Shown in pieces: positions 12,467 through 43,296 of a stretch of 64,000 nt of DNA. The translations under genes and the position numbers were made by a program. The notes below the pieces were generated by a model. It searched no databases. It had not been told where the DNA came from and saw nothing but the letters and a program-made list of their open reading frames with translations. The DNA comes from Thraustochytrium sp. TN22 (lineage: Eukaryota > Sar > Bigyra > Thraustochytrida > Thraustochytriidae): contig JABLUY010000071.1 of assembly GCA_013306675.1 (NCBI GenBank), positions 62,001 through 126,000 of the forward strand, written 5' to 3'. Numbering within the stretch: the first letter of the stretch is position 1; every line of letters begins with the position of its first letter.

Positions 12467-13412
12467 GGCGGCCGCGGCCCGCGACCCGCGCCCCTCCGCC
12501 GCGCCCCTCCGCCGCGCGAGCTCCGCGGTCTGCAGCCTGTCTCCCCGCCGAGCCTGTGAACGAACGTACGGTGCGGCCTCGTCCCCGTGCACAAGGCGGA
12601 GCCTGTGAACGACCAGAAGGGGGCCACCTCCAACTTGAGGTACTCGGCCCAGCCTGGCCTTAGTAAAAGCGAAACGAGCGAGCTTGACAGTGGGTCAGGC
12701 CACTCTCTGGCCACGCAAGCTGGGTTTAGCAGCCAGCTAGCTAGCTAGCTAGCTTGCCACAGCCTGCCAAAACGGCGCCAGGCGACGGCAGCGGCGGCAC
12801 TAACAGGAACTTGATGATGAACAGCGCTCGTACAGGCTGATCAGCTGGCAGCGAACCGCGTCCTCGCTGCGCCACGATGCGCTGGAGCCTGCCAGTGCAG
12901 TTGGGCTCGCGAGGACGGCTCGCCGCGGCTCGCGGGCTCGGTCGATCACTCTCGCTCGCTCACGCCCTCACTCACGCCCTCGCTCGCCCTCGCACGCTCG
13001 CAGCGACTCGGCCCGCCGGCGGCCGGGCGTGGGCGTGCGACGGACGCCCGTGGCACCCAGGAGTGACGAGCAGCCGCCAAGTGGACACCACCGCAAGAAG
13101 CCCGCGCCGCCCTCGCTCGCTCGAGGCGAGCGCCAGCGCGACGCTCGCGCCGCTCGCTGGGCGCTCTCGTGCTCGCCGCCTCCCAGCCGCTGCCGGCCGA
13201 CCTCAGCTGCGGCCGCGGCGACCTGCACGCGCTGCAGGACGTCCGGTCGGGCTGCGCGTGCTGCACAACGCCCGCGACAGGGCGCCCCAGGGCGCCATAG
13301 AAAAGACGTTCCGCAAGCGGAGCGAGAACGGGCTGCAGGCGCTGGCTGGCGGCGCCTGGCGGCCAGCGCGCAGACCCGCAACCCAGGCCGCCGCGGAGCC
13401 GCTCTCGCAAGC
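12467..13412. other. Divergent intergenic region before the TIR-NACHT-WD40 gene
   Basis: About 950 bases separate the minus-strand methyltransferase from the plus-strand receptor-like gene, so both promoters should lie here. It contains an (AGCT)n run at 12735-12754 and CTCGCTCAC-type pyrimidine-rich repeats around 12937-13000. The frame of the downstream gene is open from about 13029, but without an ATG before 13413 or any recognisable domain. Confidence 0.5.
12735..12754 (+). repeat. (AGCT)n microsatellite
   Basis: Five tandem AGCT units. The run is self-complementary and could form a small hairpin. No function is evident. Confidence 0.8.
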
Positions 13413-16400
13413 ATGCTGGGCAAGGCGTTCCTCTCGCGCTTCTGGCCGGCGGCGCCGCCGAGCGCGGCGGCGCCGGACGCCGCGCCGGCGCCGTCGAGCA
13501 CGACCGCACCCGAGGCGGACGCCGGAGATGAGCTCGAGCTCGAGCTCGATCTGGTGACCGTGTTCTTGTCGCACAAGAGCGGCCCGGACGAGGAAGGCCG
13601 CGACACGCGCACACGCGCGCGCGAGATCGCGGCGTGGTTCGCGGCGCGCGTCGAGGAGCTGGGTATCCACATGGTGCTCGACGCGGACGAAGTCGCCGGC
13701 AGTGCGGACACGTGGATGGCCAGCGCGATCGACGGATGCACGGTGGTCCTTGTGTGCATCACTAAAAAGTACTACGAGGCGGTGAACGCCGGCGACAAGC
13801 GCGACAGCTGCCAGAAGGAGTTCGCCTACGCCGGGAAGCACAAGCCGAACCGCATGTTGGGTCTGGTTATGGAGCGTGCGGTCCCGCGCGAGCGCGACTG
13901 GAAAGGTCCGCTCGATATGATTATGCACGACGTGCTCAACCACCACCACGAGACGGACGCTGACTTCGATGCTTCCATGCGTGCGCTCGCGCGGCTCATC
14001 CGGAAGAAGGCCACCGAGCCGCTCGTCGTGGACGTGCGGCCTCTTGGTGGTGGAGCGCGGCCGCCCCCCTTTGAGCTCGGCTACGACTTTCGCTACGAGG
14101 GCCGCGTCAAGGCGCTCGAGTACCAGGTCGGAACCCGACTCTGGATCCTCCGTGAATTCGAGCTCTGGGCCAAAAAGCATGGCTGGGGCTCCCGCATCAT
14201 GGGTATGCTCGGCCCGGCCGGCTTCGGCAAGTCTGTCATCATCGCCCTCATCTGCATCTCTCTGCTCGGCTTCCCCCCCGTCCAGCCCAGGCGGTCGATC
14301 GCGGCCCCTGTCTCGCAGCGCTTGTCCCGCTCGCAGCCCTTCATCATCGGCGCCGTCCACTTCTTCCGGTTCCATGATAGCGACGCCAAGGACGTGCTCG
14401 TCTGCCTGCTCAGCATCGCCAACCAGCTCGCCGCGGTCGTCCCGGGCCTGCGTGACCAGTACACGCCGGAGCTCATCGCCAACGCCACCGAGCAGAGGGA
14501 CCCGCTCATGCTGTTCAAGCGCATCATCGCCGAGCCGTGCTCCAAGGTGGACAAGCCCGCGACGCGCGTCATTGTGGCGCTGGACGCGCTGGACGAGGCT
14601 GACCCCGAGCAGCGCGACGCCCTCCTCCACATCATTCGCCAGGAGTGGAGCCGCAGCACGCCCGACTGGCTCGGCCTCCTCGTCGCCTCGAGGCCCGAGG
14701 ACGAGATCCGCGAGCGCCTGCTCCACGACGACCCGCTCATCCTTGAGCTCGATGACGAGCGCAACAAGACCGACGTCGCCAAGTTCCTCCGCGCCAAGCT
14801 CAAGGACTTCATGGCCAGCGACGCGGAGCTCGGCATGGCTCTGCCGCAGCTCGAGGAGAGCGCGCAAGGCCTCTTCCTCTACGCCGCCATGCTCCATAGC
14901 AAGCTCAAAAAAGACGAGAAGAGGAATCTGACGGCCGCCGAGCTGGTTGGCCTCTCCCCCTCGAGCCTCGACGCCATGTACAAGGAGTACTTCGGGAGGC
15001 TGCTCGACGGGCCGCTGCGGGGCGACGAGGACTACGCCAACTTGCTCGGCGCCATGTGCGCAGCGCGCGACCCGCTGCCCATCAGCGTCGCGGCCAAGGT
15101 CCTCGAACGCAATGAGCGCATGACGAAGCGCCTGCTCGCTGGCGCAGCACACATCCTCGACGTGGACGCCACCAGCGTGCGCTTCATCCACAAGTCCATG
15201 CCCGACTTCCTCACTGACCGGGCCCGTGCGGGCAGAAAGCTCCAGGTCGAGCGCGAGCAGGGCCACGCAACGCTTGCCGAGGTCCTCCTTCATGACAGCA
15301 CCACTTTCGCCCTCAAGCACATCATCTTCCACCTCTGCATGAGCGAGCGTCAGGACGACGCCCTCAAGCTGCTCGACGACTTCAGGTGGGTCCGCGAGCT
15401 CCTTGCAGCCAAGTCGTCTCCCACCGAGCGCCACGCCTTCATTGGCGGCGTCCTCCGCGACGCGCCGCAGGCCAAGCTGGATGCCGAGAGCGATACACCC
15501 CGGCTCCTGAGCAAGGCAATGCTCGCCGAAACCACCGACCCAGACCAGTTCGTTAGCCAGGTCCTCGCGCGCATCGATTGCCCCGACCACCCCCTGCGAC
15601 GCACGCTCGAACCGCCGCACAAACCGTGGCTCTGCCCCGTCAAGCAGTCCCTCGCCCCGCCGCGCGATCCGCTCCTGCACGTGCTCAGGGGGCATAAAGA
15701 ATCCGTCCACGGCGTGGCCCTACACGGCGACCGGATCGTGTCTGGGTCGTACGACAAGACGGTGCGCGTGTGGGACGCTCACACCGGCCAAATGCTGCAC
15801 GTGCTCGAGGGGCACACTTGGTCTGTCAACAGCGTGGCTTTGGACGGCGACCGGATCGTGTCTGGGTCTGACGACAAGACGGTGCGCGTGTGGGACGCTC
15901 ACACCGGCCAAATGCTGCACGTGCTCGAGGGGCACACTTGGTCTGTCAACAGCGTGGCTTTGGACGGCGACCGGATCGTGTCTGGGTCTGACGACAAGAC
16001 GGTGCGCGTGTGGGACGCTCACACCGGCCAAATGCTGCACGTGCTCGAGGGGCACACGTCTGACGTCTACAGCGTGGCTTTGGACGGCGACCGGATCGTG
16101 TCTGGGTCGCACGACAACACGGTGCGCGTGTGGGACGCTCACACCGGCCAAATGCTGCACGTGCTCGAGGGGCACACTTATGCCGTCCTATGCGTGGGTG
16201 TGCACGGCGACCGGATCGTGTCTGGGTCTTCAGACTTTACGTTGCGCGTGTGGGACGCTCACTCCGGCCAGATGCTGCACGTGCTTGAGGGCCACACTAG
16301 CCCCGTCAAGAGCGTAGCTTTGGACGGCGACCGGATCGTGAGTGGGTCTTACGACAAGACGGTGCGCGTGTGGGACGCTCACACCGGCCAAATACTGCAC

Positions 16401-17987
16401 GTGCTCGAGAGGCACATGGCTGAGGTTCGATGCGTGGCTTTGGACGGCGACCGGATCGTGTTTGGGACTGACGACAAGACGGTGCGCGTGTGGGACGTTC
16501 ACGCCGGTCAAATGCTGCACGTGCTCGAGCGGCACGCGTCTGCCGTCTTAAGCATGGCTTTGGATGGCGACCGGATCGTGTCTGGGTCTGACGACAGGAG
16601 GATGCGCGTGTGGGACGCTCGCACCGGCCAAATGCTGCACGTGCTCAAGGGGCACTTTGGGTGGGTCAGCAGCGTGGCTTTGGACGGCGACCGGATCGTG
16701 TCTGGGTCGAGAGACTTCACGGTGCGCGTGTGGGACGCTCAAACTGGCCAAATGCTGCACGAGCTCGAGGGGCACACTCAGTGGGTCAGCAGCGTGGCTT
16801 TCGACGGCGACCGGATCGTGTCTGGGTCTGGTGGGTTTTCTGCTTCTCCGGACAACACGGTGCGCGTGTGGGACGCTCGCACCGGCCAAATGCTGCACGT
16901 GCTCAAGGGGCATACGGATTCGATCAACAGCGTGGCTTTGGACGGCGACCGGATCGTGTCTGGGTCTGACGACAAGACGGTGCGCGTGTGGGACGCTCAC
17001 ACCGGCCAAATGCTGCACGTGCTCGAGGGGCACACTGATTGGGTCAACAGCGTGGCTTTGGACGGCGACCGGATCGTGTCTGGGTCTGACGACAACACGG
17101 TGCGCGTGTGGGACGCTCACACCGGCCAAATGCTGCACGTGCTCGAGGGGCACACTGATTGGGTCAACAGCGTGGCTTTGGACGGCGACCGGATCGTGTC
17201 TGGGTCTGACGACAAGACGGTGCGCGTGTGGGACGCTCACACCGGCCAAATGCTGCACGTGCTCGAGGGGCACACTGATTGGGTCAACAGCGTGGCTTTG
17301 GACGGCGACCGGATCGTGTCTGGGTCTGACGACAAGACGGTGCGCGTGTGGGACGCTCACACCGGCCAAATGCTGCACGTGCTCGAGGGGCACACTGATT
17401 GCGTCAACAGCGTGGCTTTGGACGGCGACCGGATCGTGTCTGGGTCTGACGACAAGACGGTGCGCGTGTGGGACGCTCACACCGGCCAAATGCTGCACGT
17501 GCTCGAGGGGCACACGTCAGACGTCTTAAGCGTGGCTTTGGACGGCGACCGGATCGTGTCTGGGTCTGGCGATGTCTCTCCTTCTCCGGACAACACGGTG
17601 CGCGTGTGGGACGCTCACACCGGCCAAACGCTGCACGTGCTCGAGGGGCACACTGATAGAGTCAAGAGCGTGGCTTTGGACGGCGGCATCATCACCAGCA
17701 AGGACGTCTACGACACCGTGCTGCACTGGGACCTGGAGACCGGTGCGCGAGTGGACGCCCAAGCCGCGGCGACGCGTCTGAAGCGGGGGCACCACGCCCT
17801 TCCGGTTGAGGTGACAAATCAAGTCCAGATCCTTCCTGGCGATGGCGGGGCGGGCTTCACCACAGATCATTTCGGTCTCCATTGCGTCCGTCAGGGCGCC
17901 ACCATCGTCGCTGGTGATGCATCCGGCATGGTGCACGTACTCAAGATGAAGGAAGCTGCCTCCTTTAACGAGGCAGCTGACCGTTAG
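13413..17987 (+). CDS. TIR-NACHT-WD40 NOD-like receptor
   Basis: Predicted protein of 1524 residues with three parts. (1) TIR-like domain, about 45-200: LVTVFLSH at its start, a GSADTW turn, CTVVLVCITKKYY, then CQKEFAYA; Glu136 sits where TIR NADases keep their catalytic Glu. (2) NACHT/STAND NTPase, about 225-750: Walker A GPAGFGKS (267-274, Lys273) and Walker B VALDALDEAD (Asp391, Asp394, Glu395). (3) A C-terminal array of 17 WD40 repeats from about residue 755, most exactly 40 residues (120 bases), ending in a distinct tail (HVLKMKEAASFNEAADR). This is the plan of fungal HET-E-type and other NLRs: ligand binding by WD40, NTP-driven oligomerisation, signalling by TIR. The first ATG compatible with the TIR domain is at 13413. 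The repeats look recently homogenised. A role in self/non-self or pathogen recognition is inferred. Confidence 0.88.
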   Translation: MLGKAFLSRFWPAAPPSAAAPDAAPAPSSTTAPEADAGDELELELDLVTVFLSHKSGPDEEGRDTRTRAREIAAWFAARVEELGIHMVLDADEVAGSADTWMASAIDGCTVVLVCITKKYYEAVNAGDKRDSCQKEFAYAGKHKPNRMLGLVMERAVPRERDWKGPLDMIMHDVLNHHHETDADFDASMRALARLIRKKATEPLVVDVRPLGGGARPPPFELGYDFRYEGRVKALEYQVGTRLWILREFELWAKKHGWGSRIMGMLGPAGFGKSVIIALICISLLGFPPVQPRRSIAAPVSQRLSRSQPFIIGAVHFFRFHDSDAKDVLVCLLSIANQLAAVVPGLRDQYTPELIANATEQRDPLMLFKRIIAEPCSKVDKPATRVIVALDALDEADPEQRDALLHIIRQEWSRSTPDWLGLLVASRPEDEIRERLLHDDPLILELDDERNKTDVAKFLRAKLKDFMASDAELGMALPQLEESAQGLFLYAAMLHSKLKKDEKRNLTAAELVGLSPSSLDAMYKEYFGRLLDGPLRGDEDYANLLGAMCAARDPLPISVAAKVLERNERMTKRLLAGAAHILDVDATSVRFIHKSMPDFLTDRARAGRKLQVEREQGHATLAEVLLHDSTTFALKHIIFHLCMSERQDDALKLLDDFRWVRELLAAKSSPTERHAFIGGVLRDAPQAKLDAESDTPRLLSKAMLAETTDPDQFVSQVLARIDCPDHPLRRTLEPPHKPWLCPVKQSLAPPRDPLLHVLRGHKESVHGVALHGDRIVSGSYDKTVRVWDAHTGQMLHVLEGHTWSVNSVALDGDRIVSGSDDKTVRVWDAHTGQMLHVLEGHTWSVNSVALDGDRIVSGSDDKTVRVWDAHTGQMLHVLEGHTSDVYSVALDGDRIVSGSHDNTVRVWDAHTGQMLHVLEGHTYAVLCVGVHGDRIVSGSSDFTLRVWDAHSGQMLHVLEGHTSPVKSVALDGDRIVSGSYDKTVRVWDAHTGQILHVLERHMAEVRCVALDGDRIVFGTDDKTVRVWDVHAGQMLHVLERHASAVLSMALDGDRIVSGSDDRRMRVWDARTGQMLHVLKGHFGWVSSVALDGDRIVSGSRDFTVRVWDAQTGQMLHELEGHTQWVSSVAFDGDRIVSGSGGFSASPDNTVRVWDARTGQMLHVLKGHTDSINSVALDGDRIVSGSDDKTVRVWDAHTGQMLHVLEGHTDWVNSVALDGDRIVSGSDDNTVRVWDAHTGQMLHVLEGHTDWVNSVALDGDRIVSGSDDKTVRVWDAHTGQMLHVLEGHTDWVNSVALDGDRIVSGSDDKTVRVWDAHTGQMLHVLEGHTDCVNSVALDGDRIVSGSDDKTVRVWDAHTGQMLHVLEGHTSDVLSVALDGDRIVSGSGDVSPSPDNTVRVWDAHTGQTLHVLEGHTDRVKSVALDGGIITSKDVYDTVLHWDLETGARVDAQAAATRLKRGHHALPVEVTNQVQILPGDGGAGFTTDHFGLHCVRQGATIVAGDASGMVHVLKMKEAASFNEAADR
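15679..17690 (+). repeat. 120-bp WD40-coding tandem repeat, 17 units
   Basis: Seventeen in-frame units inside the receptor gene; two (near 16830 and 17570) carry a short extra segment with the residues PDNTV. Several adjacent units are identical or nearly so at DNA level, while differences concentrate at the same few codons: the residues after GHT, and those around SxDxT. This is the signature of unequal exchange combined with diversity at the binding surface. Confidence 0.9.
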
Positions 17988-29901: not shown

Positions 29902-32900
29902 CTAGGGCTCCTTCTCGTAGCTGGTGCTGCTGGAGGACCCGGCCTCGCTGAGCTTGCGGCGCTTGGAAGGCGTGCCACGGTCGTGCTTGTGGGCCTCGCA
30001 GTTGCGGGAGAGCTTGACGCGGAGGTTGGAGCAGCCCTCGGACAGGCACTTGTTGTGCTTATTGCAGTGACTGCAAAAGTCCTTGACGTTGGGATGCGTC
30101 TTGCGTTGGCACGGGCTCGTGCACCCCGCGCAACCCTCGCACTTGCAGCGGCACGAAGCGCAGTACTTCTCGTTGGGATTGCAATGGTTGGAGCACAGCC
30201 CACCCTCGTTGGCGCTGCAGTGCGTCCTCGCATGCTGCGAGCAGATGGACTTCTTCGCCTCGGTCGTGCGTGGGCAGTCGGGGTGTGAGCAAAGGCCCCG
30301 GGGACGCACAAAAAGTTTGCCGTTCTCCAGCGGAGCGGGGGTCATGTCGTCACAGAGGGCCGTCGGCAAGTCGGCTGTTGAGGTGTGAGGGTACATGCTT
30401 GCGGCCTGCTGTGCGGCGAATTTGCTAAGGGGCATTTCCGAGCCGGCCTCGAAGAGCCATTGAGCGAGGGCCCTCATGAACTTGTCGCTCTTGGCCTTCT
30501 TTTTGCCTTCGGAGTCAGGCACGCTGGACGGGTTCTTGTACAGCCACAGGAGCACAGTGGCGACGTCGTTGCACGTCTGGAGAGGCGCGTCGTCTTGCTC
30601 GTCCGACTCGCCCGCAAGCTCAGCCACAAGCTTCAGGTAAGGAAAGTTCTCCTTGGTCACGCGCTCGATGACCTTGGTGGGGGTGCCGCTCGGCAACCTC
30701 TTCGTCACCATTTGCTGGAGCCAGCTGCGGCCGTTGCGCACGGTAATGTCGTCCCCCTGCACAAAGACGCTTTCGGCCCTGTCCTCCTCCCCGTCATTCC
30801 TGTCGTCCTCGTCCGTGTCAATGTCAGTCACGTCGCCCGCGAGCGGGTCTTCTTCGGTCGCCTCTGGCTGTTCCGTCCGCGAAAAGAGACGCGTGCCCTG
30901 CGCCCCGAACGCAACGTTGATGCGCGCTTCAAAGTCTTGCTGAATGAGGTCCCGGCCGTCCTCGTTGCCCCTGCGCACTGGAGCGCTTGTGATGTTTCGG
31001 ATGCCTTTGTTGTTGGACAGGTTGAGCCGCGCTGGGGCGCCGACGTCGGCTCCGTACGCCGCGCACAGCTCCTCGAGGCGATCTTGCCAGCTTGCGACAT
31101 TGACAGTGTCCTGCTCGAGGTGTTGGAGGCCTTCCCGGAGCGCCTGGTGCGCCGCAGCGCCGTTGTGGATGAGCGGGAAATAGTGCTCCAGAATGGCGAG
31201 CTCCGGGCGGCGGTGCGCCCATGAATTGGCCGACGGGAAGCTCGAGAGCATGTGGAGCGTGAGTGTCCGCTTGCCGTCGCCGCGCGCCGTGCCCTGGTGC
31301 ACATCTACCGCGTCGCTGACGCCGTTCGGGCTCCACGAGAAGATCGCGTGGGTCGCCTGGAGCCCGCGGCACTGGCTCATGATGGAGACCGAGTGGCGCA
31401 TGAGCGACTTGCCGACGGTGAGCTCGAGCAACGGCGTGTTCATCATGGCGAACATACTGTCGCGAAGCTCCGCCTTGGCGGCCGCGTCAGTCGCCGAGCA
31501 GTTCGGGTACGGGTTCTCGATGCCGAGCGCCTTGCAGTAGGCGCGGTACATGATCTCCTTGGAGACCTGGAGCGGCAGTCCCTTGGGCATGGGAATGCGG
31601 AAGACCTTGCCATTGGGCGTCTCGCGGTCAGTGCTTTCCGGAGTAAGCGTGTCGTAGCACACCACGGCCGTATCGAGCTGGCCAGGCGCCGGGCGTTGGT
31701 AGTTCTCCTCGCTGACCTCCACCACGCCTTTTGCCATTTCCGCAAAGTGCTCAAAGAAGCGCTTTTGCAGTGACGGCGTGCACGTGTAGATGGCGGGCCG
31801 AGGACCGGCGGGCTTCTCGGTGAGCTGGTGGAAGAACTCCAGCAGGCATTCCGGTTGCTCCACCAGAAAATCAATGACAGCCTGGTTGCAGTGCACACCC
31901 GGCACCGCGTCGACCTCCATGATCGAGGAGGACTGGTACACGGGGAAGCCCAAGAACCAGGGCTCCTTGACCGGCACATTCTCGCGCGCCTTTTGACGCT
32001 CGTACTGCGCGACGCCTTCGGCAACGAAGTAGCGGGAGAAGACCGCGTGCGCGGCATTCTGCGAACGGGAGCTGGACTGGTTGTGTGGGACGCCAGCCAT
32101 AAAGCCGCCGTGCAGGAGAACGCTCTTGGGCTGCAGCCACGGCTTTCCGGGGGCGAGAGTCGTGTACCGCAGGAGCTTGGAGAGCTGCTCCACGGTGGTG
32201 AACACCGTGCCGAGTGCCTGGATTTCGAGCCACTTCAAGTTCTCCGCGTACTCCAGGACGTTGCGCGCCGCAAGGTCCACGTCGAGCGCGTTGAAGTTGG
32301 AGACCGTGGTCTGGGTGAGGAAGAGCTCGAGCGGGAAGTCCGTCAGCGTTTCGTCGGACAGCTGCGGCAGCATCACCAGCTTCTTGTAGCTGAAGTCGTG
32401 GATGTCAAGCGCCTTGAACCGCAGGATCTGGTCCGCAGAGTAGATGGTTTGCAGGCAGTGGAAGGAAGGCGCGCACGGGCGCAACTCCACGATGGAGCCA
32501 ATCTCCGCAAAGCTCGCGGCGCTAGCCCCCTCGTTGCCGTCCTCGTCGTCGTCGTCGTCGTTCGCAAGGGCCGCCCCTTGGCGAAGCCTGGCTTGCTTGC
32601 GGAGGAGATTGCCGACCAGCAGCGGCAGGTCCGTGGCGGTGATGCGGATGACGTTGTCGCCAAAAGCGTCCTCGTGTTGCGCCACGTCGTTGTGGAAGAT
32701 GTTGGACCCCATGAGCAGATGCGCCTCGTCCAGGACCATCACGGGATGGCCGCCCAGCGGTGCCACCAGCGCCCGCGCCTTCTCCACGGTCCCGCCGCTC
32801 CCTGGCCAGATACTGTAGAACACGCGGACCGGGTGCAGGTTGCCATCGATGACGCTCTCCTGGCGCGGGTCCTCCTCCAGCGACGCCACGCCCTCGCTGC

Positions 32901-33672
32901 ACTTGTTGAGCTTGAAGACGCGCGACGCAACGCGGCCGCTGAAGGTCTGGTCGCGGGCGCCCGTGCCGGTCCGGTACACGCCGATGAAAAGGACCTCCGG
33001 GAGGTAGCTCGACGTCCGCTTGAGGCGCCGCTTGCTCGCGATGAGGGCCGGGGTGTACACCGTCTTGGCATAGATGCTCTGGATCCACTCGATCTGGCTC
33101 GCCAGGTCCTTGCGCACCTGGCCCGCCTGGGAATGGCCAAAGAGGAGAATCGGATCGCCGCACACGCCCGCGGAAAAGCACGGCAGAAGCAGCATGCCCT
33201 TGAGCGTCTTGCCGCCCTGCATGATGATCTTGATCAGCTTCTTGCCCTTGCTGAAGTACTTGCGGACTTCCTCGTTCGCCAGGTCGCGCAGCTCCTCGAA
33301 CTCGTCCGCCTCGACGATCATGCGCCACAGGATGCGCAGGAGGATGGCGGCCAGGATCGTGCACGGCGCCTGGCACAGCCCGGCCACCGCCAGCATGCCA
33401 TTCAGCTCCGTCGCGTCGACCTCGTTCTCATAAAGCATAAAGGCGGCCGCCGCCTCCTCCGTCCACTGCCCCGCGAGGCCCGCGAAGCGAGACTCCGCCA
33501 GCGCGGCCTCCACCGTCTCCTTGTGGCGCACGATCTCCTCGGGCTTCCCGGCGTCCTGCTCCTGCTGGAATGCGATGAAGCGCTCCAGGCTGAACAGGTT
33601 CCCCGCGCCGTCGGCGGCCTCGCCCCCCGCCGTCGCGCCCGCGCCGCCCGGGTTCTCCTCGTTGCCGCTCAT
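29902..33672 (-). CDS. DEAH-box SF2-like ATPase with Cys-rich C-terminus (paralogue A)
   Basis: Predicted protein of 1256 residues, family not recognised. Superfamily 2 helicase-like motifs are visible in order: MQGGKTLKG at 151-159 as Walker A/motif I (GGKT at 153-156), VMVLDEAH as motif II (DEAH at 315-318), ITATDLP as motif III (TAT at 345-347), and QCRGLQATH from 767 as a possible motif VI. The spacing between I and II is about 160 residues. Acidic low-complexity stretches lie near 372-382 and 960-985. The end (1126-1228) holds 18 cysteines, many as CxxC or CxC pairs, suggesting several zinc sites, followed by a KRRK patch that may be a nuclear signal. A nucleic-acid-dependent ATPase in the nucleus is the natural guess. 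The adjacent gene is a paralogue over about 840 residues. The ATG at 33672 precedes a Gly/Ala-rich lead. Confidence 0.75.
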   Translation of the reverse strand: MSGNEENPGGAGATAGGEAADGAGNLFSLERFIAFQQEQDAGKPEEIVRHKETVEAALAESRFAGLAGQWTEEAAAAFMLYENEVDATELNGMLAVAGLCQAPCTILAAILLRILWRMIVEADEFEELRDLANEEVRKYFSKGKKLIKIIMQGGKTLKGMLLLPCFSAGVCGDPILLFGHSQAGQVRKDLASQIEWIQSIYAKTVYTPALIASKRRLKRTSSYLPEVLFIGVYRTGTGARDQTFSGRVASRVFKLNKCSEGVASLEEDPRQESVIDGNLHPVRVFYSIWPGSGGTVEKARALVAPLGGHPVMVLDEAHLLMGSNIFHNDVAQHEDAFGDNVIRITATDLPLLVGNLLRKQARLRQGAALANDDDDDEDGNEGASAASFAEIGSIVELRPCAPSFHCLQTIYSADQILRFKALDIHDFSYKKLVMLPQLSDETLTDFPLELFLTQTTVSNFNALDVDLAARNVLEYAENLKWLEIQALGTVFTTVEQLSKLLRYTTLAPGKPWLQPKSVLLHGGFMAGVPHNQSSSRSQNAAHAVFSRYFVAEGVAQYERQKARENVPVKEPWFLGFPVYQSSSIMEVDAVPGVHCNQAVIDFLVEQPECLLEFFHQLTEKPAGPRPAIYTCTPSLQKRFFEHFAEMAKGVVEVSEENYQRPAPGQLDTAVVCYDTLTPESTDRETPNGKVFRIPMPKGLPLQVSKEIMYRAYCKALGIENPYPNCSATDAAAKAELRDSMFAMMNTPLLELTVGKSLMRHSVSIMSQCRGLQATHAIFSWSPNGVSDAVDVHQGTARGDGKRTLTLHMLSSFPSANSWAHRRPELAILEHYFPLIHNGAAAHQALREGLQHLEQDTVNVASWQDRLEELCAAYGADVGAPARLNLSNNKGIRNITSAPVRRGNEDGRDLIQQDFEARINVAFGAQGTRLFSRTEQPEATEEDPLAGDVTDIDTDEDDRNDGEEDRAESVFVQGDDITVRNGRSWLQQMVTKRLPSGTPTKVIERVTKENFPYLKLVAELAGESDEQDDAPLQTCNDVATVLLWLYKNPSSVPDSEGKKKAKSDKFMRALAQWLFEAGSEMPLSKFAAQQAASMYPHTSTADLPTALCDDMTPAPLENGKLFVRPRGLCSHPDCPRTTEAKKSICSQHARTHCSANEGGLCSNHCNPNEKYCASCRCKCEGCAGCTSPCQRKTHPNVKDFCSHCNKHNKCLSEGCSNLRVKLSRNCEAHKHDRGTPSKRRKLSEAGSSSSTSYEKEP

Positions 33673-34388
33673 CTTCTCCGCCTCTGCACTCGCGCCTTCC
33701 CTCTCGCTTTTGCTCTGGTCCTTGCTCGCGCTCCTCGGTTGCTGGTTTGCCTCGCCGCCCTGCCCGTCGCCGCAGCGCCGCTCTGGCTCGCCCTGCGGCG
33801 CGCCGGGAGCAACGCCGGGTGCCCCGCGGGAGCGGCCCCCGGCGGGAGCCCCGCGGGTGCAACTCCGCGGGAGCGCCGGGAGCGGGAGCGCGCGAGCATC
33901 CTAGGACGATTAGAGCGCCGCGTGGTGGACTGCAAGCAACGCGACGGCGGGCGTGGTCGCGTGGGCGATGGAAACCATGGCGTCGAGATACGCCAAGTCT
34001 TCTGAAACAAGCCCAGAGTCGACGAGCGGAGAGGGTGAGGGAGACGGAGACGGAGAGGGAGAGGTGCTTGGCACGGGAGAGAGGCGCAGCGGCCAGGCAA
34101 CCGACGAGCACGCGCGGCTACGCCAGCGCCACGCGCCGATGCGCGAACATTTTCGTTGCGTGGAAAGACTCGGCATCGTCACGGTACAGTGCGGCGTAAT
34201 TGGTCAAAACTTGGCGTGTAGCCTCTTGAATCAGCTGGGTCGCCTTCATGAGTCATTGAACATGAAGATTGTCTTTCTATACCAGTGGCCTTCGGTCCCA
34301 TCCTGGAAAGCGGCTTACACTCAGATCAGTCTGATAACCTTGAAGCCATCGTTGCGAGTCCGTGACGGTTCGCAGATCTTGATGAAGA
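33673..34388. other. Intergenic between the two DEAH-ATPase paralogues
   Basis: About 715 bases. The first part is GC-rich with GGGAGC/CCGCGGG repeats (about 33800-33900), then a GGGAGACGGAGA-type purine run near 34030-34070, then a lower-GC 200 bases ending at the stop of the LRR-ARM gene. It contains paralogue A's promoter and paralogue B's 3' end. No gene is supported. Confidence 0.5.
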
Positions 34389-37300
34389 CTATCCTCTTCG
34401 CCGCAATCCACCAACCGCGCTCAGTGCGCTACGAGCGTTGGCCTGCACCTCGCGATCGGCCCGGTGCTTGCGCATGGCCGCGAGGATGTCGGCGCCGGCC
34501 TGCAGCTCCTGGCCGAGGATCTCCTTGTTGCGCGTGTTGATTGCGAGATTCCAAAGCGCGCCACATGCGTTGGCCTGCACCTCGCGATCGGCTCGGTGCT
34601 CGCGTATGTCCGCGAGGATGTCGACGCCGGCCTGCAGCTCCTGGCCAAGGATCTCCTGGTTGCGCGCGTTGACGGCGAGGTTCCAAAGTGCGGCACATGC
34701 GTTGGCCTGCACCTCGCGATCGGCCCGGTGCTCGCGCATGGCCGCGAGGATGTCGGCGCCGGCCTGCAGCTCCTGGCCGAGGATCTCCTTGTTGCGCGCG
34801 TTGACGGCGAGGTTCCAAAGCGCGCCACATGCGTTGGCCTGCACCTCGCGATCGGCTCGGTGCTCGCGTATGTCCGCGAGGATGTCGACGCCGGCCTGTA
34901 GCTCCTGGCCGAGGATCTCCTCGTTGCGCGCGTTGACGGCGAGGTTCCAAAGCGCGCCACATGCGTTGGCCTGCACCTCGCGATCGGCCCGGTGCTCGCG
35001 CATGGCCGCGAGGATGTCGGCGCCGGCCTGCAGCTCCTGGCCGAGGATCTCCTTGTTGCGCGCGTTGATTGCGAGATTCCAAAGCGCGCCACATGCGTTG
35101 GCCTGCACCTCGCGATCGGCTCGGTGCTCGCGTATGTCCGCGAGGATGTCGACGCCGGCCTGTAGCTCCTGGCCGAGGATCTCCTCGTTGCGCGCGTTGA
35201 CGGCGAGGTTCCAAAGCGCGCCACATGCGTTGGCCTGCACCTCGCGATCGGCCCGGTGCTCGCGCATGGCCGCGAGGATGTCGGCGCCGGCCTGCAGCTC
35301 CTGGCCGAGGATCTCCTTGTTGCGCGCGTTGATTGCGAGATTCCAAAGCGCGCCACATGCGTTGGCCTGCACCTCGCGATCGGCTCGGTGCTCGCGTATG
35401 TCCGCGAGGATGTCGACGCCGGCCTGTAGCTCCTGGCCGAGGATCTCCTCGTTGCGCGCGTTGACGGCGAGGTTCCAAAGCGCGCCACATGCGTTGGCCT
35501 GCACCTCGCGATCGGCCCGGTGCTCGCGCATGGCCGCGAGGATGTCGGCGCCGGCCTGCAGCTCCTGGCCGAGGATCTCCTTGTTGCGCGCGTTGATTGC
35601 GAGATTCCAAAGCGCGCCACATGCGTTGGCCTGCACCTCGCGATCGGCTCGGTGCTCGCGTATGTCCGCGAGGATGTCGACGCCGGCCTGTAGCTCCTGG
35701 CCGAGGATCTCCTCGTTGCGCGCGTTGACGGCGAGGTTCCAAAGCGCGCCACATGCGTTGGCCTGCACCTCGCGATCGGCCCGGTGCTCGCGCATGGCCG
35801 CGAGGATGTCGGCGCCGGCCTGCAGCTCCTGGCCGAGGATCTCCTTGTTGCGCGCGTTGATTGCGAGATTCCAAAGCGCGCCACATGCGTTGGCCTGCAC
35901 CTCGCGATCGGCTCGGTGCTCGCGTATGTCCGCGAGGATGTCGACGCCGGCCTGTAGCTCCTGGCCGAGGATCTCCTCGTTGCGCGCGTTGACGGCGAGG
36001 TTCCAAAGCGCGCCACATGCGTTGGCCTGCACCTCGCGATCGGCCCGGTGCTCGCGCATGGCCGCGAGGATGTCGGCGCCGGCCTGCAGCTCCTGGCCGA
36101 GGATCTCCTTGTTGCGCGCGTTGATTGCGAGATTCCAAAGCGCGCCACATGCGTTGGCCTGCACCTCGCGATCGGCTCGGTGCTCGCGTATGTCCGCGAG
36201 GATGTCGACGCCGGCCTGTAGCTCCTGGCCGAGGATCTCCTCGTTGCGCGCGTTGACGGCGAGGTTCCAAAGCGCGCCACATGCGTTGGCCTGCACCTCG
36301 CGATCGGCCCGGTGCTCGCGCATGGCCGCGAGGATGTCGGCGCCGGCCTGCAGCTCCTGGCCGAGGATCTCCTTGTTGCGCGCGTTGATTGCGAGATTCC
36401 AAAGCGCGCCACATGCGTTGGCCTGCACCTCGCGATCGGCTCGGTGCTCGCGTATGTCCGCGAGGATGTCGACGCCGGCCTGTAGCTCCTGGCCGAGGAT
36501 CTCCTCGTTGCGCGCGTTGACGGCGAGGTTCCAAAGCGCGCCACATGCGTTGGCCTGCACCTCGCGATCGGCCCGGTGCTCGCGCATGGCCGCGAGGATG
36601 TCGGCGCCGGCCTGCAGCTCCTGGCCGAGGATCTCCTTGTTGCGCGCGTTGATTGCGAGATTCCAAAGCGCGCCACATGCGTTGGCCTGCACCTCGCGAT
36701 CGGCTCGGTGCTCGCGTATGTCCGCGAGGATGTCGACGCCGGCCTGTAGCTCCTGGCCGAGGATCTCCTCGTTGCGCGCGTTGACGGCGAGGTTCCAAAG
36801 CGCGCCACATGCGTTGGCCTGCACCTCGCGATCGGCCCGGTGCTCGCGCATGGCCGCGAGGATGTCGGCGCCGGCCTGCAGCTCCTGGCCGAGGATCTCC
36901 TTGTTGCGCGCGTTGATTGCGAGATTCCAAAGCGCGCCACATGCGTTGGCCTGCACCTCGCGATCGGCTCGGTGCTCGCGTATGTCCGCGAGGATGTCGA
37001 CGCCGGCCTGTAGCTCCTGGCCGAGGATCTCCTCGTTGCGCGCGTTGACGGCGAGGTTCCAAAGCGCGCCACATGCGTTGGCCTGCACCTCGCGATCGGC
37101 CCGGTGCTCGCGCATGGCCGCGAGGATGTCGGCGCCGGCCTGCAGCTCCTGGCCGAGGATCTCCTTGTTGCGCGCGTTGATTGCGAGATTCCAAAGCGCG
37201 CCACATGCGTTGGCCTGCACCTCGCGATCGGCTCGGTGCTCGCGTATGTCCGCGAGGATGTCGACGCCGGCCTGTAGCTCCTGGCCGAGGATCTCCTCGT

Positions 37301-40300
37301 TGCGCGCGTTGACGGCGAGGTTCCAAAGCGCGCCACATGCGTTGGCCTGCACCTCGCGATCGGCCCGGTGCTCGCGCATGGCCGCGAGGATGTCGGCGCC
37401 GGCCTGCAGCTCCTGGCCGAGGATCTCCTTGTTGCGCGCGTTGATTGCGAGATTCCAAAGCGCGCCACATGCGTTGGCCTGCACCTCGCGATCGGCTCGG
37501 TGCTCGCGTATGTCCGCGAGGATGTCGACGCCGGCCTGTAGCTCCTGGCCGAGGATCTCCTCGTTGCGCGCGTTGACGGCGAGGTTCCAAAGCGCGCCAC
37601 ATGCGTTGGCCTGCACCTCGCGATCGGCCCGGTGCTCGCGCATGGCCGCGAGGATGTCGGCGCCGGCCTGCAGCTCCTGGCCGAGGATCTCCTTGTTGCG
37701 CGCGTTGATTGCGAGATTCCAAAGCGCGCCACATGCGTTGGCCTGCACCTCGCGATCGGCTCGGTGCTCGCGTATGTCCGCGAGGATGTCGACGCCGGCC
37801 TGTAGCTCCTGGCCGAGGATCTCCTCGTTGCGCGCGTTGACGGCGAGGTTCCAAAGCGCGCCACATGCGTTGGCCTGCACCTCGCGATCGGCCCGGTGCT
37901 CGCGCATGGCCGCGAGGATGTCGGCGCCGGCCTGCAGCTCCTGGCCGAGGATCTCCTTGTTGCGCGCGTTGATTGCGAGATTCCAAAGCGCGCCACATGC
38001 GTTGGCCTGCACCTCGCGATCGGCTCGGTGCTCGCGTATGTCCGCGAGGATGTCGACGCCGGCCTGTAGCTCCTGGCCGAGGATCTCCTCGTTGCGCGCG
38101 TTGACGGCGAGGTTCCAAAGCGCGCCACATGCGTTGGCCTGCACCTCGCGATCGGCCCGGTGCTCGCGCATGGCCGCGAGGATGTCGGCGCCGGCCTGCA
38201 GCTCCTGGCCGAGGATCTCCTTGTTGCGCGCGTTGATTGCGAGATTCCAAAGCGCGCCACATGCGTTGGCCTGCACCTCGCGATCGGCTCGGTGCTCGCG
38301 TATGTCCGCGAGGATGTCGACGCCGGCCTGTAGATCCTGGCCGAGGATCTCCTTGTTGCGCGCGTTGATGGCGAGCTTTCGGAGCGCGCCACATGCGTTG
38401 GCCTGCACCTCGCGATCGGCCCGGTGCTCGCGCATGGCCGCGAGGATGTCGGCGCCGGCCTGCAGCTCCTGGCCGAGGATCTCCTTGTTGCGCGCGTTGA
38501 TTGCGAGATTTCGGAGCGCGCCACATGCGTTGGCCTGCACCTCGCGATCGGCCCGGTGCTCGCGTATGTCCGCGAGGATGTCGACGCCGGCCTGCAGCTC
38601 CTGGCCGAGGATCTCCTGGTTGCGCGCGTTGATGGCGAGCTTTCGGAGCGCGCCACATGCGTTGGCCTGCACCTCGCGATCGGCCCGGTGCTCGCGCATG
38701 GCCGCGAGGATGTCGGCGCCGGCCTGCAGCTCCTGGCCGAGGATCTCCTTGTTGCGCGCGTTGATTGCGAGGTCCTGAAGCACGCCACATGCGAGAGCCT
38801 GCACCTCGCGATCGGCCCGGTGCTCGCGCATGGCCGCGAGGATATCGGCGCCGGCCCGCAGCTCCTGGCCGAGGATCTCCTTGTTACGATCGTTGAGAGC
38901 GAGTCTCCACAGCGCGCCACATGCGTTGGCCTGCACCTCGCGATCTGCCTTGTTTTCGCGCATCATCGCGAGAATTTGGGTGCCGATCCTCTTGCAACCA
39001 CTCAGATGACCTTGGTCAACATTGAGAAGGAGCATGCCGGCACCGCCCGTCGTTTCCTCCGTGTCGCCGATGTTGAACTCGTGATGCTGTGAAATCTGCT
39101 TGTTGTAGACGTCGTGCAAAGGCGCCGCGGATCTGGATCTGGTCTCATCTGCTCCCAGAATCTTGCGACGCTTGTTCTTGGGGCACTCGGTCTTGATCAA
39201 GCAGCCCTTCGCTTTCCGAGTGCTTGGGCTCGGCATGGTGCTTGCCAGGCTTTCGCGCGGTGTAGGCTCATCACCAGCACCGGCTGCGAATGTGGACGCA
39301 ATGTCATCGTCCTCCACAAGCTTGCGGCGCTTGTACTGGACCAGCTCGGTGGTGTCTTCCCAGCCGTCCGCGCCTTTGTTCTTGCTCCGACCGACGAAGG
39401 TGCTCGTCGGGCTGTCTTGCAACGAAAGGGCGCTGTCAGCTTCGCAGTACGCAGCGCACAACCTTTCGAGTCGATCATGCCAGCCCTCGGTGCCGACAGC
39501 GTCCTCATGCAGCTCGGCGAGGCTATCGTGAAACGCTTGATTCGTGGCCGCACTTCGGCAAAAGAGAGAGAAGTGGCGATCCGAGATGGCAAGCTCTGGG
39601 CGCCGGTCAGCCCAGGTCATGGCTTCGGGATAGCTGGAGCGCATGTGAAGCGTGAGTACCCGCTTGCCGTCACCGACAGCAAGGTCTTGCTGAAGACCGG
39701 GCACGTCACAGTGGGTACCTCCACTTTCGGGATAGATCACGTGCGTCGTCTGCAGGCCCCGGCACAGGCTCGTTGTGCATGCTGGGTGACCCCGGGTGCC
39801 AGCAGTGGATGAGTTTAGCCGCCGCGGACCGCACACAGTGAGCTCCAAGAGCGGAGCGGTCGCCATTGCGTCCACCGACTCCTGCATCGCTGCCTTCTTC
39901 GCAGAATCACCCGGCGCGCAGGCCAGATATGGATCCTTGATGGCCAGCGCCTTGCAGTATGCACGGTACATGATCTCCTTTGAAACCTGCAGCGGAAGTC
40001 CCACGGGCAATTGGACTCGAAAAACCTGCACCTGAGACGCGCCATCGAGGGCGCTGTGTGGGGCGGGATAATCGTAGCATACCACAGCGGTCGGACCCAT
40101 GATATCTGCGCATCGATGGTGCTCCTTCTCATGGACGACCATCAAGCCTGCCGCCATGGTCTCGAAATGCTCCATGAAGCGCCTCCGCAACGCAGGCGTG
40201 CATGGGAAGTTAGCGTGACGAGATCCTGGTGCCGCTTCGCAAAGCTCCTTGAAGATCTCCAGCGGGCAGTCCGGGTGCTCCAGTAGAAAGTCGATGACAG

Positions 40301-42887
40301 CCTTGTTGCAGTGCACGCCTGGCACCGAGTCGATCCCCATCATCGGGGAGGGCTGGTAAGCGGGGAAACCCAGGAGCCAAGGCGCCCGGGTCGTGCTTGC
40401 TACGCCGCCCGCCCTGGCAAGCGCGTGTCGCTCGAACTGCGCGACACCTTCGGCAACGAAAAACCGTGACAACGCAACGCGCGCGACGCTGTCCGAGCGG
40501 TCGCCGAGCTCGCCTTGCGCCGAATTGCTGCAACAAAGAAGGATGCTCTTTGGCTGCAGCCACTGGGTCGGATGGTTCGGGCTGGATGCCGTGGAAACGT
40601 AGCGGACCAGTTCTGAGAGCTGCTCCACGGTTGTTAGCACCGTACAGAGCGAGCGGAACTCGGGCATGAAGTTCATCCCTGCATGCTCCAAGACGTTGCG
40701 CTCGTTAAAATCGAGGTCGTGCTCCTCGACGTAGCTCTCGGTTGCCTCGGTGAGAAAAGGCTTGAGCGAGAAATCTGTCAAGGTTTCACTGGACAGTCTC
40801 TTCCGTAGCCGCATGATCTTGTACTTGAAGTCATGAATGCCGAGTTTCTCGAAGCGCTCGATCTGGTCTGCAGAGTAGAAGGCCCGCAGACAATGGAAGA
40901 AGGGCGCGCACGGGACCAGCTCCACGATGCTGCCGACCTCTGCGACGCCCGTGGAGCCGGCCACCCTCTCGATCTTGACGAGGCTAGGGGACGTGGTCTC
41001 CTTGCGCAACAGCTTGCCAATGATCAGCGGCAGGTCCGTCGCGGTGGTGCGGATCACGTCGTCGCCAAAGGCTTCCTCATGCTGCGCCACCTCCTTGTGA
41101 AACGTCATGGACCCCGTGAGCAGGTGCGCCTCGTCAATGGCCATCAGAGGACGGCCGCCGAGCGGCGCAACGAGCGCGCGCGCTTTGTCCACGCTCCCAG
41201 CGATCCCGGGCCAGACGCTGAAGAAAACGCGGACTGGGCTCGGGTTGCCATCGATGACGCCCTCCCGGCGTGGATCCTCCTCCGGCGCCGCCGTACCCTC
41301 GCCGCGTTTGCTGAGCTTGAAGACGCGCGACGCTACACGTCCACTGTACGTCTGGTCGCAGGCGCTCACGCCGGTCCGGTAGACACCGGAAAAGAGGACC
41401 TCTGGCAGGTAGCTGGACGTCCTCTCCAGGCACTGGCTGCTCGCGATGAGGGCGGGGATGTACACCGTCCTCTCGTAGATGCCCTGGATCCACTCGATCT
41501 GGCCCTTCATCTCCTTGGACACCTGGCCGGTCCGGGAGTGGCCGAAGAGAAGAATCGGATCGCCGCGCACGCCGGCGGAGAAGCACGGAAGAAGCAGCAT
41601 GCCTTTGAGTATCGACGTGTCCTGTGCAGGAATCTTGACGATCTTTTTGCCCTTGGTGAAGTACTTGCGGACCTCTTCGTTCGCGAGGTCGCGCAGTTCC
41701 TCAAACTCGTCGGCCTTGAGAACCATACGCCACAGGATGCGCATGAGGATGGCTGCCATGATTGTGCATGGCGCCTGGCACAGCTCTGCCACCGCGAGCA
41801 TGCCCTCAAGCTCCGTCGCGTCAATGACGTCCTCGCAGAGCGCGAAAGCGGCAGCTGACTCCTCCGTCCACTCCTCCGCGACACCCGAGAAGTGGGTGCC
41901 TTCCAGCACCTTTTTGACGTCGTCCCTGTGGGTGCCGCGATCGTGGGGCGCCGACGCAGGCTCCGCAGAGTCCTCATGGGTCCTGACACCGTCCGCATGC
42001 TTTGAGGTGCGCACGTGGCTGGTCTTGTCCACGAGCGGCTTCACCAGTGAGTCCTCAGACTGAACCTCTTGCAGCGAGGCAGTCCTCTCATCTTTGTCTT
42101 GCTCGACATCGTCTCCGTCGGAAGGCGCTCCTTCGAAGACGACCACGCGCGAGCCGTCGGGGTTGCGGATCGAGTCCCGGAGGCTGTTTCGAAGCGCCCT
42201 TGAGACCAAGTAGGCGCTGAGGCGCAATTCCTGCAGAGGCCGGTCCTGCTTGGAACGATCCTCGACGGCCTTGACGAGCGCCTTGATCGCATCTGGTTCG
42301 AAGTCGTTCAGAGCGCAACGCACGATTTCCAGCTTGCTGTCGGGATGCCGAATAGCCTCGCAAAGTGGCCCAGCTGCGTCGTCGTCGAGCCCGCAGCATG
42401 TGAGGTCGAGCGTCGTGAGGTGCCTCGCAGCCTCGAAGAAGAGATGGAACTCCACATCGCAGAGGAGGTTGCCTGCCAGGACGAGCTCTCGCAGACCAAC
42501 CCCATTCCTCAGCAGGGTCCTCACAGTCTGGAGTGCATTGCCTGCGCTCAACTCGGTGTCCGATAGGTCGAGCAATCTGAGCTTCGACTTGGGCAAAGCT
42601 TGAAGCACGAGGCGAAGCGCCTCGTCGGTAAATGGGCTCCCAGCGAGATGAAGCTCGCGGATCTTGGAGTCATTTCTCGTGAGCGGGTCGAACAGGGCTC
42701 TCGCCGCGACAAGAGACAGGTTCCGTTGTCCGAAGTCAACGCGCTCTCCCACGTTGAGGTCGAGAAGGGCTGCCAAGTTCCTCACCTCCTGCTCCAGCCA
42801 CCGCTCTCGCTTGCTCACGACCGTCGCCCCTCCGCGCCCAGTGTGCCTTTTGCGCATGCCATTGCCCGCCAGGGGGTCCTGGTTCAT
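34389..42887 (-). CDS. LRR - DEAH-box ATPase - 35x ARM repeat protein (paralogue B)
   Basis: Predicted protein of 2832 residues. Residues about 35-225 are leucine-rich repeats of the ribonuclease-inhibitor kind (KIRELHLAGSPFTDEALRLV, LRLLDLSDTELSAG, LRELVLAGNLL, LTTLDLTCCGL). Residues about 330-1180 are the same ATPase core as the neighbouring gene, aligning without gaps at an offset of 270 from its residue 63 to 350: KADEFEELRDLANEEVRKYF here against EADEFEELRDLANEEVRKYF there. DEAH is kept (585-588) and so is TAT (615-617), but the Walker A GGKT is replaced (AQDTSILKG, 421-429). From about 1300 to the end are 35 armadillo-type repeats of 44 residues, alternating two forms (GADILAAM... and GVDILADI...). 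The last repeat is cut short. No zinc region is present. The plan suggests a sensor with a core that has probably lost NTP hydrolysis. The first in-frame ATG is at 42887. Confidence 0.8.
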   Translation of the reverse strand: MNQDPLAGNGMRKRHTGRGGATVVSKRERWLEQEVRNLAALLDLNVGERVDFGQRNLSLVAARALFDPLTRNDSKIRELHLAGSPFTDEALRLVLQALPKSKLRLLDLSDTELSAGNALQTVRTLLRNGVGLRELVLAGNLLCDVEFHLFFEAARHLTTLDLTCCGLDDDAAGPLCEAIRHPDSKLEIVRCALNDFEPDAIKALVKAVEDRSKQDRPLQELRLSAYLVSRALRNSLRDSIRNPDGSRVVVFEGAPSDGDDVEQDKDERTASLQEVQSEDSLVKPLVDKTSHVRTSKHADGVRTHEDSAEPASAPHDRGTHRDDVKKVLEGTHFSGVAEEWTEESAAAFALCEDVIDATELEGMLAVAELCQAPCTIMAAILMRILWRMVLKADEFEELRDLANEEVRKYFTKGKKIVKIPAQDTSILKGMLLLPCFSAGVRGDPILLFGHSRTGQVSKEMKGQIEWIQGIYERTVYIPALIASSQCLERTSSYLPEVLFSGVYRTGVSACDQTYSGRVASRVFKLSKRGEGTAAPEEDPRREGVIDGNPSPVRVFFSVWPGIAGSVDKARALVAPLGGRPLMAIDEAHLLTGSMTFHKEVAQHEEAFGDDVIRTTATDLPLIIGKLLRKETTSPSLVKIERVAGSTGVAEVGSIVELVPCAPFFHCLRAFYSADQIERFEKLGIHDFKYKIMRLRKRLSSETLTDFSLKPFLTEATESYVEEHDLDFNERNVLEHAGMNFMPEFRSLCTVLTTVEQLSELVRYVSTASSPNHPTQWLQPKSILLCCSNSAQGELGDRSDSVARVALSRFFVAEGVAQFERHALARAGGVASTTRAPWLLGFPAYQPSPMMGIDSVPGVHCNKAVIDFLLEHPDCPLEIFKELCEAAPGSRHANFPCTPALRRRFMEHFETMAAGLMVVHEKEHHRCADIMGPTAVVCYDYPAPHSALDGASQVQVFRVQLPVGLPLQVSKEIMYRAYCKALAIKDPYLACAPGDSAKKAAMQESVDAMATAPLLELTVCGPRRLNSSTAGTRGHPACTTSLCRGLQTTHVIYPESGGTHCDVPGLQQDLAVGDGKRVLTLHMRSSYPEAMTWADRRPELAISDRHFSLFCRSAATNQAFHDSLAELHEDAVGTEGWHDRLERLCAAYCEADSALSLQDSPTSTFVGRSKNKGADGWEDTTELVQYKRRKLVEDDDIASTFAAGAGDEPTPRESLASTMPSPSTRKAKGCLIKTECPKNKRRKILGADETRSRSAAPLHDVYNKQISQHHEFNIGDTEETTGGAGMLLLNVDQGHLSGCKRIGTQILAMMRENKADREVQANACGALWRLALNDRNKEILGQELRAGADILAAMREHRADREVQALACGVLQDLAINARNKEILGQELQAGADILAAMREHRADREVQANACGALRKLAINARNQEILGQELQAGVDILADIREHRADREVQANACGALRNLAINARNKEILGQELQAGADILAAMREHRADREVQANACGALRKLAINARNKEILGQDLQAGVDILADIREHRADREVQANACGALWNLAINARNKEILGQELQAGADILAAMREHRADREVQANACGALWNLAVNARNEEILGQELQAGVDILADIREHRADREVQANACGALWNLAINARNKEILGQELQAGADILAAMREHRADREVQANACGALWNLAVNARNEEILGQELQAGVDILADIREHRADREVQANACGALWNLAINARNKEILGQELQAGADILAAMREHRADREVQANACGALWNLAVNARNEEILGQELQAGVDILADIREHRADREVQANACGALWNLAINARNKEILGQELQAGADILAAMREHRADREVQANACGALWNLAVNARNEEILGQELQAGVDILADIREHRADREVQANACGALWNLAINARNKEILGQELQAGADILAAMREHRADREVQANACGALWNLAVNARNEEILGQELQAGVDILADIREHRADREVQANACGALWNLAINARNKEILGQELQAGADILAAMREHRADREVQANACGALWNLAVNARNEEILGQELQAGVDILADIREHRADREVQANACGALWNLAINARNKEILGQELQAGADILAAMREHRADREVQANACGALWNLAVNARNEEILGQELQAGVDILADIREHRADREVQANACGALWNLAINARNKEILGQELQAGADILAAMREHRADREVQANACGALWNLAVNARNEEILGQELQAGVDILADIREHRADREVQANACGALWNLAINARNKEILGQELQAGADILAAMREHRADREVQANACGALWNLAVNARNEEILGQELQAGVDILADIREHRADREVQANACGALWNLAINARNKEILGQELQAGADILAAMREHRADREVQANACGALWNLAVNARNEEILGQELQAGVDILADIREHRADREVQANACGALWNLAINARNKEILGQELQAGADILAAMREHRADREVQANACGALWNLAVNARNEEILGQELQAGVDILADIREHRADREVQANACGALWNLAINARNKEILGQELQAGADILAAMREHRADREVQANACGALWNLAVNARNEEILGQELQAGVDILADIREHRADREVQANACGALWNLAINARNKEILGQELQAGADILAAMREHRADREVQANACGALWNLAVNARNEEILGQELQAGVDILADIREHRADREVQANACGALWNLAVNARNKEILGQELQAGADILAAMREHRADREVQANACAALWNLAVNARNQEILGQELQAGVDILADIREHRADREVQANACGALWNLAINTRNKEILGQELQAGADILAAMRKHRADREVQANARSALSAVGGLRRRG
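34400..38990 (-). repeat. 132-bp ARM-coding tandem repeat, 35 units, in 264-bp pairs
   Basis: The motif encoding DREVQA recurs every 132 bases from 34441 to 38929, giving 35 units. Units alternate between two variants, forming a 264-base higher-order repeat. From about 34860 to 38320 successive 264-base units look identical by eye: rows 1320 bases apart (five 264-base units) match base for base. Units at both ends are more divergent, as expected when an array expands and homogenises from its centre. Confidence 0.95.
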
Positions 42888-43296
42888 GTCGCGGGGGCGC
42901 CTGTGCCCTTTTCCTCGTGCCCTCCGAGCTCGAGTGCGCCCCCTCCTCGACGCTCCGAACGCCGCGTCAGGAGCAGCGCTTGCCGTTCTGCCGCCCTGGC
43001 CCGCCCAGCCGGCCTGTCGCCCGCAGACGAAGGGCGATCGACGCAAGGGCGATCGACGCCGTGTCGATCGACGCCCGCTCGATCCGCCTCCACCGGGCCG
43101 GGCTGCCGATCGTCTGTCACGCGACCGTCGATCGACTGGCGAGGTCAACCAAGGAACCAGCGCACTGGCAGAACCCCATCGTCCACGCGCGTCGCGCAGC
43201 GCGAGGCCGCGTGGGCGGGGGTGGGGGAGAAGGACGCGCAGCCGCGGCGAGAGCCTGACTGCGTGGCGCTAAGAGCGACCAAGCCGCGCTTGGCCA
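42888..43296. other. Bidirectional promoter region
   Basis: About 410 bases between the divergent LRR-ATPase-ARM gene and the orphan gene. It contains GATCGACGC at 43036, 43051 and 43066 with a related GATCCGCC at 43081, spaced exactly 15 bases apart, plus a further CGTCGATCGAC near 43127. These could be factor-binding sites serving one or both genes, or simple tandem duplication. Confidence 0.5.
43036..43090 (+). repeat. 15-bp spaced GATCGACGC direct repeats
   Basis: Three copies of GATCGACGC and one degenerate copy at an exact 15-base period, in the shared upstream region of two divergent genes. Confidence 0.7.

Follow-up and report, generated by a model that had tools for sequence, protein, structure and literature searches.

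A tandem gene pair with a divergent SF2-like core in Thraustochytrium sp. TN22, one copy intact and one carrying leucine-rich and armadillo repeats

What kind of ATPase is encoded by two neighboring genes that share one large core, when only one of them has an intact Walker A motif and the other carries leucine-rich repeats (LRR) before the core and armadillo repeats (ARM) after it? The question arises from a 64,000-nucleotide stretch of the Thraustochytrium sp. TN22 genome (37.9 Mb, 453 contigs), bases 62001-126000 of a contig here called C422; we refer to this whole stretch as the window. The two genes lie in tandem, head to tail on the minus strand, with coding ends 716 bp apart: C422z, whose core is followed by a cysteine-rich tail, and C422L, with the order LRR, core, ARM (Table 1). 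The anatomy of the pair is real and unusual, and its engine is like that of superfamily 2 (SF2). The best reading of our sequence comparisons is that both genes belong to a new, divergent SF2 (DExH) ATPase family, in which, as we tentatively propose, an active ATPase and a pseudo-ATPase may act together.

The pair and its core family

A sequence-only reading of this locus had described adjacent minus-strand genes with a common core, and the two cores (~825 residues) are indeed 56% identical over 850 aligned positions. The 18-cysteine region that it placed after one core is likewise present, as the 104-residue C-terminal tail of C422z. Used as a query, this tail had no other match in its own genome at E <= 1; its C-x4-C...C-x2-H spacings presumably recall WRKY19-like stramenopile zinc repeats, a resemblance without Pfam support. 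In C422L, a single frame that starts at Met128 stays open for 2832 codons, through LRR, core, and ARM. Codon log-odds, from a model built on six further open stretches, were +0.11 for the linker between LRR and core and +0.19 for the one between core and ARM when read in this frame, and negative in the other five; a stop-free frame across the 826 codons of the core would be expected by chance with P ~4e-9 at this composition. C422L reads as a single gene, as had been proposed, with no sign of separate genes; introns are possible. The upstream end of the coding region, put at 42887, also fits, because the 127 codons before Met128 have negative log-odds in all six frames.

Searches of the genome with C422z and two relatives (C425b and C102) as queries returned a core family of at least eight members, arranged in tandem pairs on contigs C422, C63, and C425 and as singletons on C102 and C341. 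Compared by hhalign, the window pair matched five of the six other members at 99.4% (E 7.6e-22, 654 columns). Each tandem pair forms a clade with 100/100 support in the tree, so the three duplications look independent; the tree gives no settled branching order among the remaining groups. Weak matches on C116 (E 0.5, stops present) and C144 (E 1.3) were not counted as members.

Beyond this genome, the collections searched hold hardly any eukaryotes. Short-pattern scans of viral contigs and of prokaryote genome contigs confirmed no relative. A five-member profile found none in the PDB (best E 0.22), and the C425b core, as sole query, found none among phages and plasmids (best E 3 and 1). Multicopy genes with long open frames and no obvious introns might be remnants of an integrated virus or mobile element with a helicase gene, but this explanation, already disfavored, is very improbable: apart from their coding sequence and the tandem duplication at C63, the loci read have no flanking DNA in common; the inverted repeats, five in all, measure only 16-22 nt and come with no long terminal repeats; and the short-pattern scan of viral contigs confirmed no relative.

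No family name for the core came from Pfam (all eight members), NCBIfam (six cores), PHROGs (four), or PADLOC (four), in line with the earlier statement that it fits no known helicase family. Pfam finds nothing in either window core, and matches below the library cut-offs comprised ResIII (E 0.0017) and DEAD for C425b only, the remainder being at chance level. The better-preserved members nevertheless carry MQGGKT, DE[AS]H, TATP, and LGR, and we take the core elements to be SF2 motifs I, II, III, V, and VI, labels that follow the SF2 consensus. Walker A, DEAH, and TATP occur in the same order as in the ResIII (PF04851) and SNF2 (PF00176) types of SF2 protein, which were the best of four SF2 groups tested. 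Profiles of five, six, and eight members matched the ResIII type at 87, 83, and 76% and SNF2 at 55, 67, and 79%, the ResIII type leading with five and six members and SNF2 with eight. A first RecA-like domain is recognizable by profile, the first half of the core reaching 94% against the ResIII type, and reversed-column controls stayed at or below 0.7%.

Conservation of the individual motifs varies across the family. The GKT of Walker A is intact in six of the eight members, C422z included, and lost in C422L and C425a; DE[AS]H is also found in six, with DESR in C63a and VEAN in C425a; and the motif VI Arg occurs within LGR in five members and within AR in C422z, being lost in C422L and C425a. 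The earlier reading of DEAH and TAT as SF2-type stands, but QCRGLQ does not represent motif VI. The paralogues have a motif VI-like element, LQ-x-LGR, ~25 residues farther downstream, and its counterparts in the window are HQGTARGDG in C422z and QQDLAVGDG in C422L.

Intact and damaged copies

The window pair divides into an intact and a damaged copy: in C422z, GGKT, DEAH, and the Arg of motif VI are all present, while C422L has AQDTSI in place of MQGGKT and Val in place of the Arg, which bears out the contrast drawn earlier between a GGKT copy and an LRR/ARM copy. Of the two C425 genes, C425b is intact, and in C425a GGKT is gone, DEAH has become VEAN, and the Arg has become Ser; of the two C63 genes, C63b is intact, and C63a has DESR together with a one-residue deletion near motif V. 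Motifs are intact in both singletons. One copy is thus damaged in each of the three pairs, clearly in two and mildly in one (C63a), and it is the damaged copy that has the longer branch in all three (0.63 versus 0.11, 1.7 versus 0.64, and 0.10 versus 0.026). Continued protein production by the damaged copies is favored by within-pair ratios of nonsynonymous to synonymous substitution rates (dN/dS) of 0.39, 0.39, and 0.68 and by their frames, which, counted from the first Met, run open for 951, 1505, and 2832 codons.

In the arrangement that we favor, C422z would bind and hydrolyze ATP on nucleic acid, with its cysteine-rich tail as a zinc-binding contact, and C422L would be a pseudo-ATPase whose core fold is retained as a docking or dimerization surface. 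The LRR and ARM surfaces of C422L may bind partners or ligands, and C422L would then regulate or target C422z, with both products acting jointly. That an intact/damaged pairing appears to have arisen three times would fit specialization of one copy as a regulatory subunit. If the pair works in this way, a nucleic acid ATPase would form a repeat-armed molecular switch with its pseudo-ATPase partner, comparable to a pair of NOD-like receptors (NLRs) with another engine; even with no role in immunity, this is an SF2-like family with a recurrent intact/damaged split.

Several results weigh against this proposal. The second half of the core, where a second RecA-like domain would lie, matched neither profile tried (ResIII-type or SNF2). 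The window pair alone gave only 20% against the ResIII type (44% for the first half) and 9% against SNF2, in matches covering 14-39 columns around DEAH, so its SF2 assignment rests on the family; AlphaFold2, run on the two window cores only, returned a low-confidence result for the two-RecA fold (predicted local distance difference test score 31.8). The motif VI of C422z departs from that of the family, and its activity is therefore not certain. Furthermore, C63a is only mildly altered, C425a is flagged in the tree as a long branch of unsure placement, and relative-rate counts are clearly unequal for the C425 pair only (chi2 11-17): for the C422 pair, chi2 is 4.4 with one of four outgroups and 0.7-1.7 with the rest, and the sign flips with outgroup C102, while for the C63 pair it is 0.2-2.9. 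By our own count, three damaged copies among eight members would fall one per pair by chance with p ~0.14.

Moreover, duplicate decay accounts for the pattern of one damaged copy per pair almost as well as specialization does. Under this alternative, the genes are products of ordinary duplication in a lineage-specific helicase-like family, in which redundant copies lost catalysis and acquired repeats through fusion, and neither immunity nor pairing plays a part; it is a serious contender that ranks close behind a paired active ATPase and pseudo-ATPase. Tandem duplicates readily decay, the dN/dS of 0.39 is an average across both copies, the ARM array is a module found also without the core, and the six of 16 scanned window frames with a Pfam match are a STAND gene and five genes of housekeeping kinds. 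Decay sits less easily with the damaged copies remaining open over the lengths given above, with the retention of an LRR-core fusion in three genes, and with an ARM array that is large and homogeneous, and so recently amplified rather than eroded.

The repeat modules of C422L

Pfam matched ARM in C422L at E 1.6e-63 and LRR_6 at E 7e-4; the latter falls under the curated cut-off, which is cleared by the LRR regions homologous to it in both C63 genes. The C422L LRR region is 40-44% identical to those of both C63 genes and resembles sequences on two other contigs more weakly (31-32%). An LRR-core fusion is kept in C422L and both C63 genes, although blastp at E 1e-3 fails to join the C422L and C63 cores despite their matching LRRs. 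Either the LRR predates the C422L/C63 split and has been under stronger constraint, or it has moved between loci.

The ARM array contains 34 full 44-residue units with partial ends. An LRR before the core (through its LRR_6 match) and ARM after it had been correctly read; the count of 35 repeats comes down to 34 full units. Two unit types alternate, with 39 of 44 residues common to both, and the 264-bp repeat detected by TRF corresponds to two units at 98% identity. Variable codons, compared in 29 of the 34 units, are two synonymous and three nonsynonymous in class A and three and two, respectively, in class B. These sequences give no sign of diversifying selection, because the units vary little beyond the two alternating types.

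ARM units also occur elsewhere in the genome: with 150 of 303 candidates scored, a unit search gave at least 208 matches, many of which are the C422L units themselves; the others listed are spread over at least 18 further contigs. A 947-residue frame on C34 has ARM units and no core in the 829 residues read. Because the units form a dispersed family that also occurs without the core, the C422L array is most simply explained as a captured module, probably amplified afterward as the 264-bp two-unit repeat. Dispersed 44-residue arrays lie on C34, C141, C44, C136, C248, C415, and other contigs; in places, identity between loci reaches 89%, which suggests exchange or recent spread. In a further case, C63a has a second copy of a C-terminal segment, 39% identical to a C63b segment; C-termini across the core family thus gain and lose modules.

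Comparison with immune receptor pairs

The locus had been likened to the plan of NLRs, and the likeness of layout holds: as in NLR and STAND proteins, the NTPase core of C422L lies between repeat domains, its tandem repeats are nearly identical, and superstructure-forming repeats are present as LRR and ARM. The domains themselves differ. The LRR is N-terminal to the ATPase, the other repeats are ARM and not WD, ANK, or TPR, and none of the eight members has a Pfam match to NACHT, NB-ARC, or NPHP3_N, nor do genome scans for NACHT and NPHP3_N list these genes. Plant paired NLRs are the closest working analogy (PMC9528088). RGA4/RGA5 and RRS1/RPS4 are, like the window pair, adjacent diverged paralogues of which one has extra domains; there the sensor P-loop is dispensable (PMC9528088), and in C422L the ATPase site is broken. 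The window pair differs in its head-to-tail order and its ATPase superfamily.

An immune or allorecognition receptor pair on an SF2 engine, in which C422L would sense through its LRR and ARM and C422z would execute, as in plant NLR pairs, is possible, if thinly supported, and we consider it unlikely. A partner with additional domains and a dead ATPase site would parallel sensor NLRs, and the ARM array reaches the numerical threshold by which fungal NLR repeats are classed as highly conserved internally (>85% identity over >=100 residues), a definition given for WD, ANK, and TPR repeats, not ARM (PMC4986451). However, Pik-1/Pik-2 need both P-loops (PMC9528088), and motif loss alone does not show a sensor partner because degenerate motifs are often found in executors (PMC12405136). 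The units lack the sign of diversifying selection, no effector domain was recognized, and the order is head to tail, unlike most NLR pairs, although RPP2A/RPP2B is described as head to tail and the head-to-head order as usual, not universal (PMC9528088). More doubtful still is a general system of SF2 instead of STAND immune or allorecognition pairs, with an ATPase-dead LRR-core-ARM sensor, an active executor, three independent splits, and an ARM array renewed by homogenization.

A TIR-NPHP3_N-WD40 gene 12 kb from the pair had also been taken as making an immune neighborhood plausible, an argument that the data do not support. NPHP3_N has 46 matches across the 37.9-Mb genome and NACHT has 14; by our arithmetic, a random point lies within 12 kb of an NPHP3_N match in ~3% of cases, and one of five loci would do so in ~14%. 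The nearest NPHP3_N gene is separated from the pair by a gene for a condensin subunit. The argument is weak because STAND genes are common and, among the matches listed, no NPHP3_N or NACHT shares a contig with any of the other four family loci. Among the papers listed on thraustochytrids and NLRs, none concerns these genes by its title. The 46 NPHP3_N matches are themselves an expanded STAND repertoire.

Table 1. Features of the gene pair and its surroundings (positions in the window)
Feature	Position	Strand	Remarks
C422z, open reading frame (ORF)	29902-33900	-	1332 aa
C422z, gene: SF2-like core and Cys-rich tail	29902..33672	-	1256 aa from Met77 of ORF
C422z, core	31054..33519	-	822 aa
C422z, Walker A-like MQGGKT	33205..33222	-	intact
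C422z, DEAH (motif II)	32719..32730	-	
C422z, motif VI-like QGTARGDG	31273..31296	-	Arg kept
C422z, Cys-rich tail	29983..30294	-	18 Cys and 9 His per 104 aa
C422L, ORF	34389-43268	-	2959 aa
C422L, gene: LRR - core - ARM	34389..42887	-	2832 aa from Met128 of ORF
C422L, LRR region	42144..42758	-	40-44% identity to C63-pair LRR regions
C422L, core	39447..41924	-	826 aa
C422L, degenerate Walker A AQDTSI	41610..41627	-	
C422L, degenerate motif VI QDLAVGDG	39666..39689	-	Arg lost
C422L, ARM array	34435..38963	-	34 full 44-aa units; 264-bp higher-order repeat; 95% mean nucleotide identity
TIR-NPHP3_N-WD40 STAND gene	12804-17987	+	16 WD units; mean pairwise identity 76%
Housekeeping frames with Pfam match			condensin subunit, tRNA endonuclease-like, acyltransferase, WW/FF, methyltransferase

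Among the housekeeping frames, the tRNA splicing endonuclease match is just under cut-off; with the condensin subunit and WW/FF matches, it indicates eukaryotic DNA. Within the STAND gene, the WD block at 16851-17572 is 96% identical at the DNA level.
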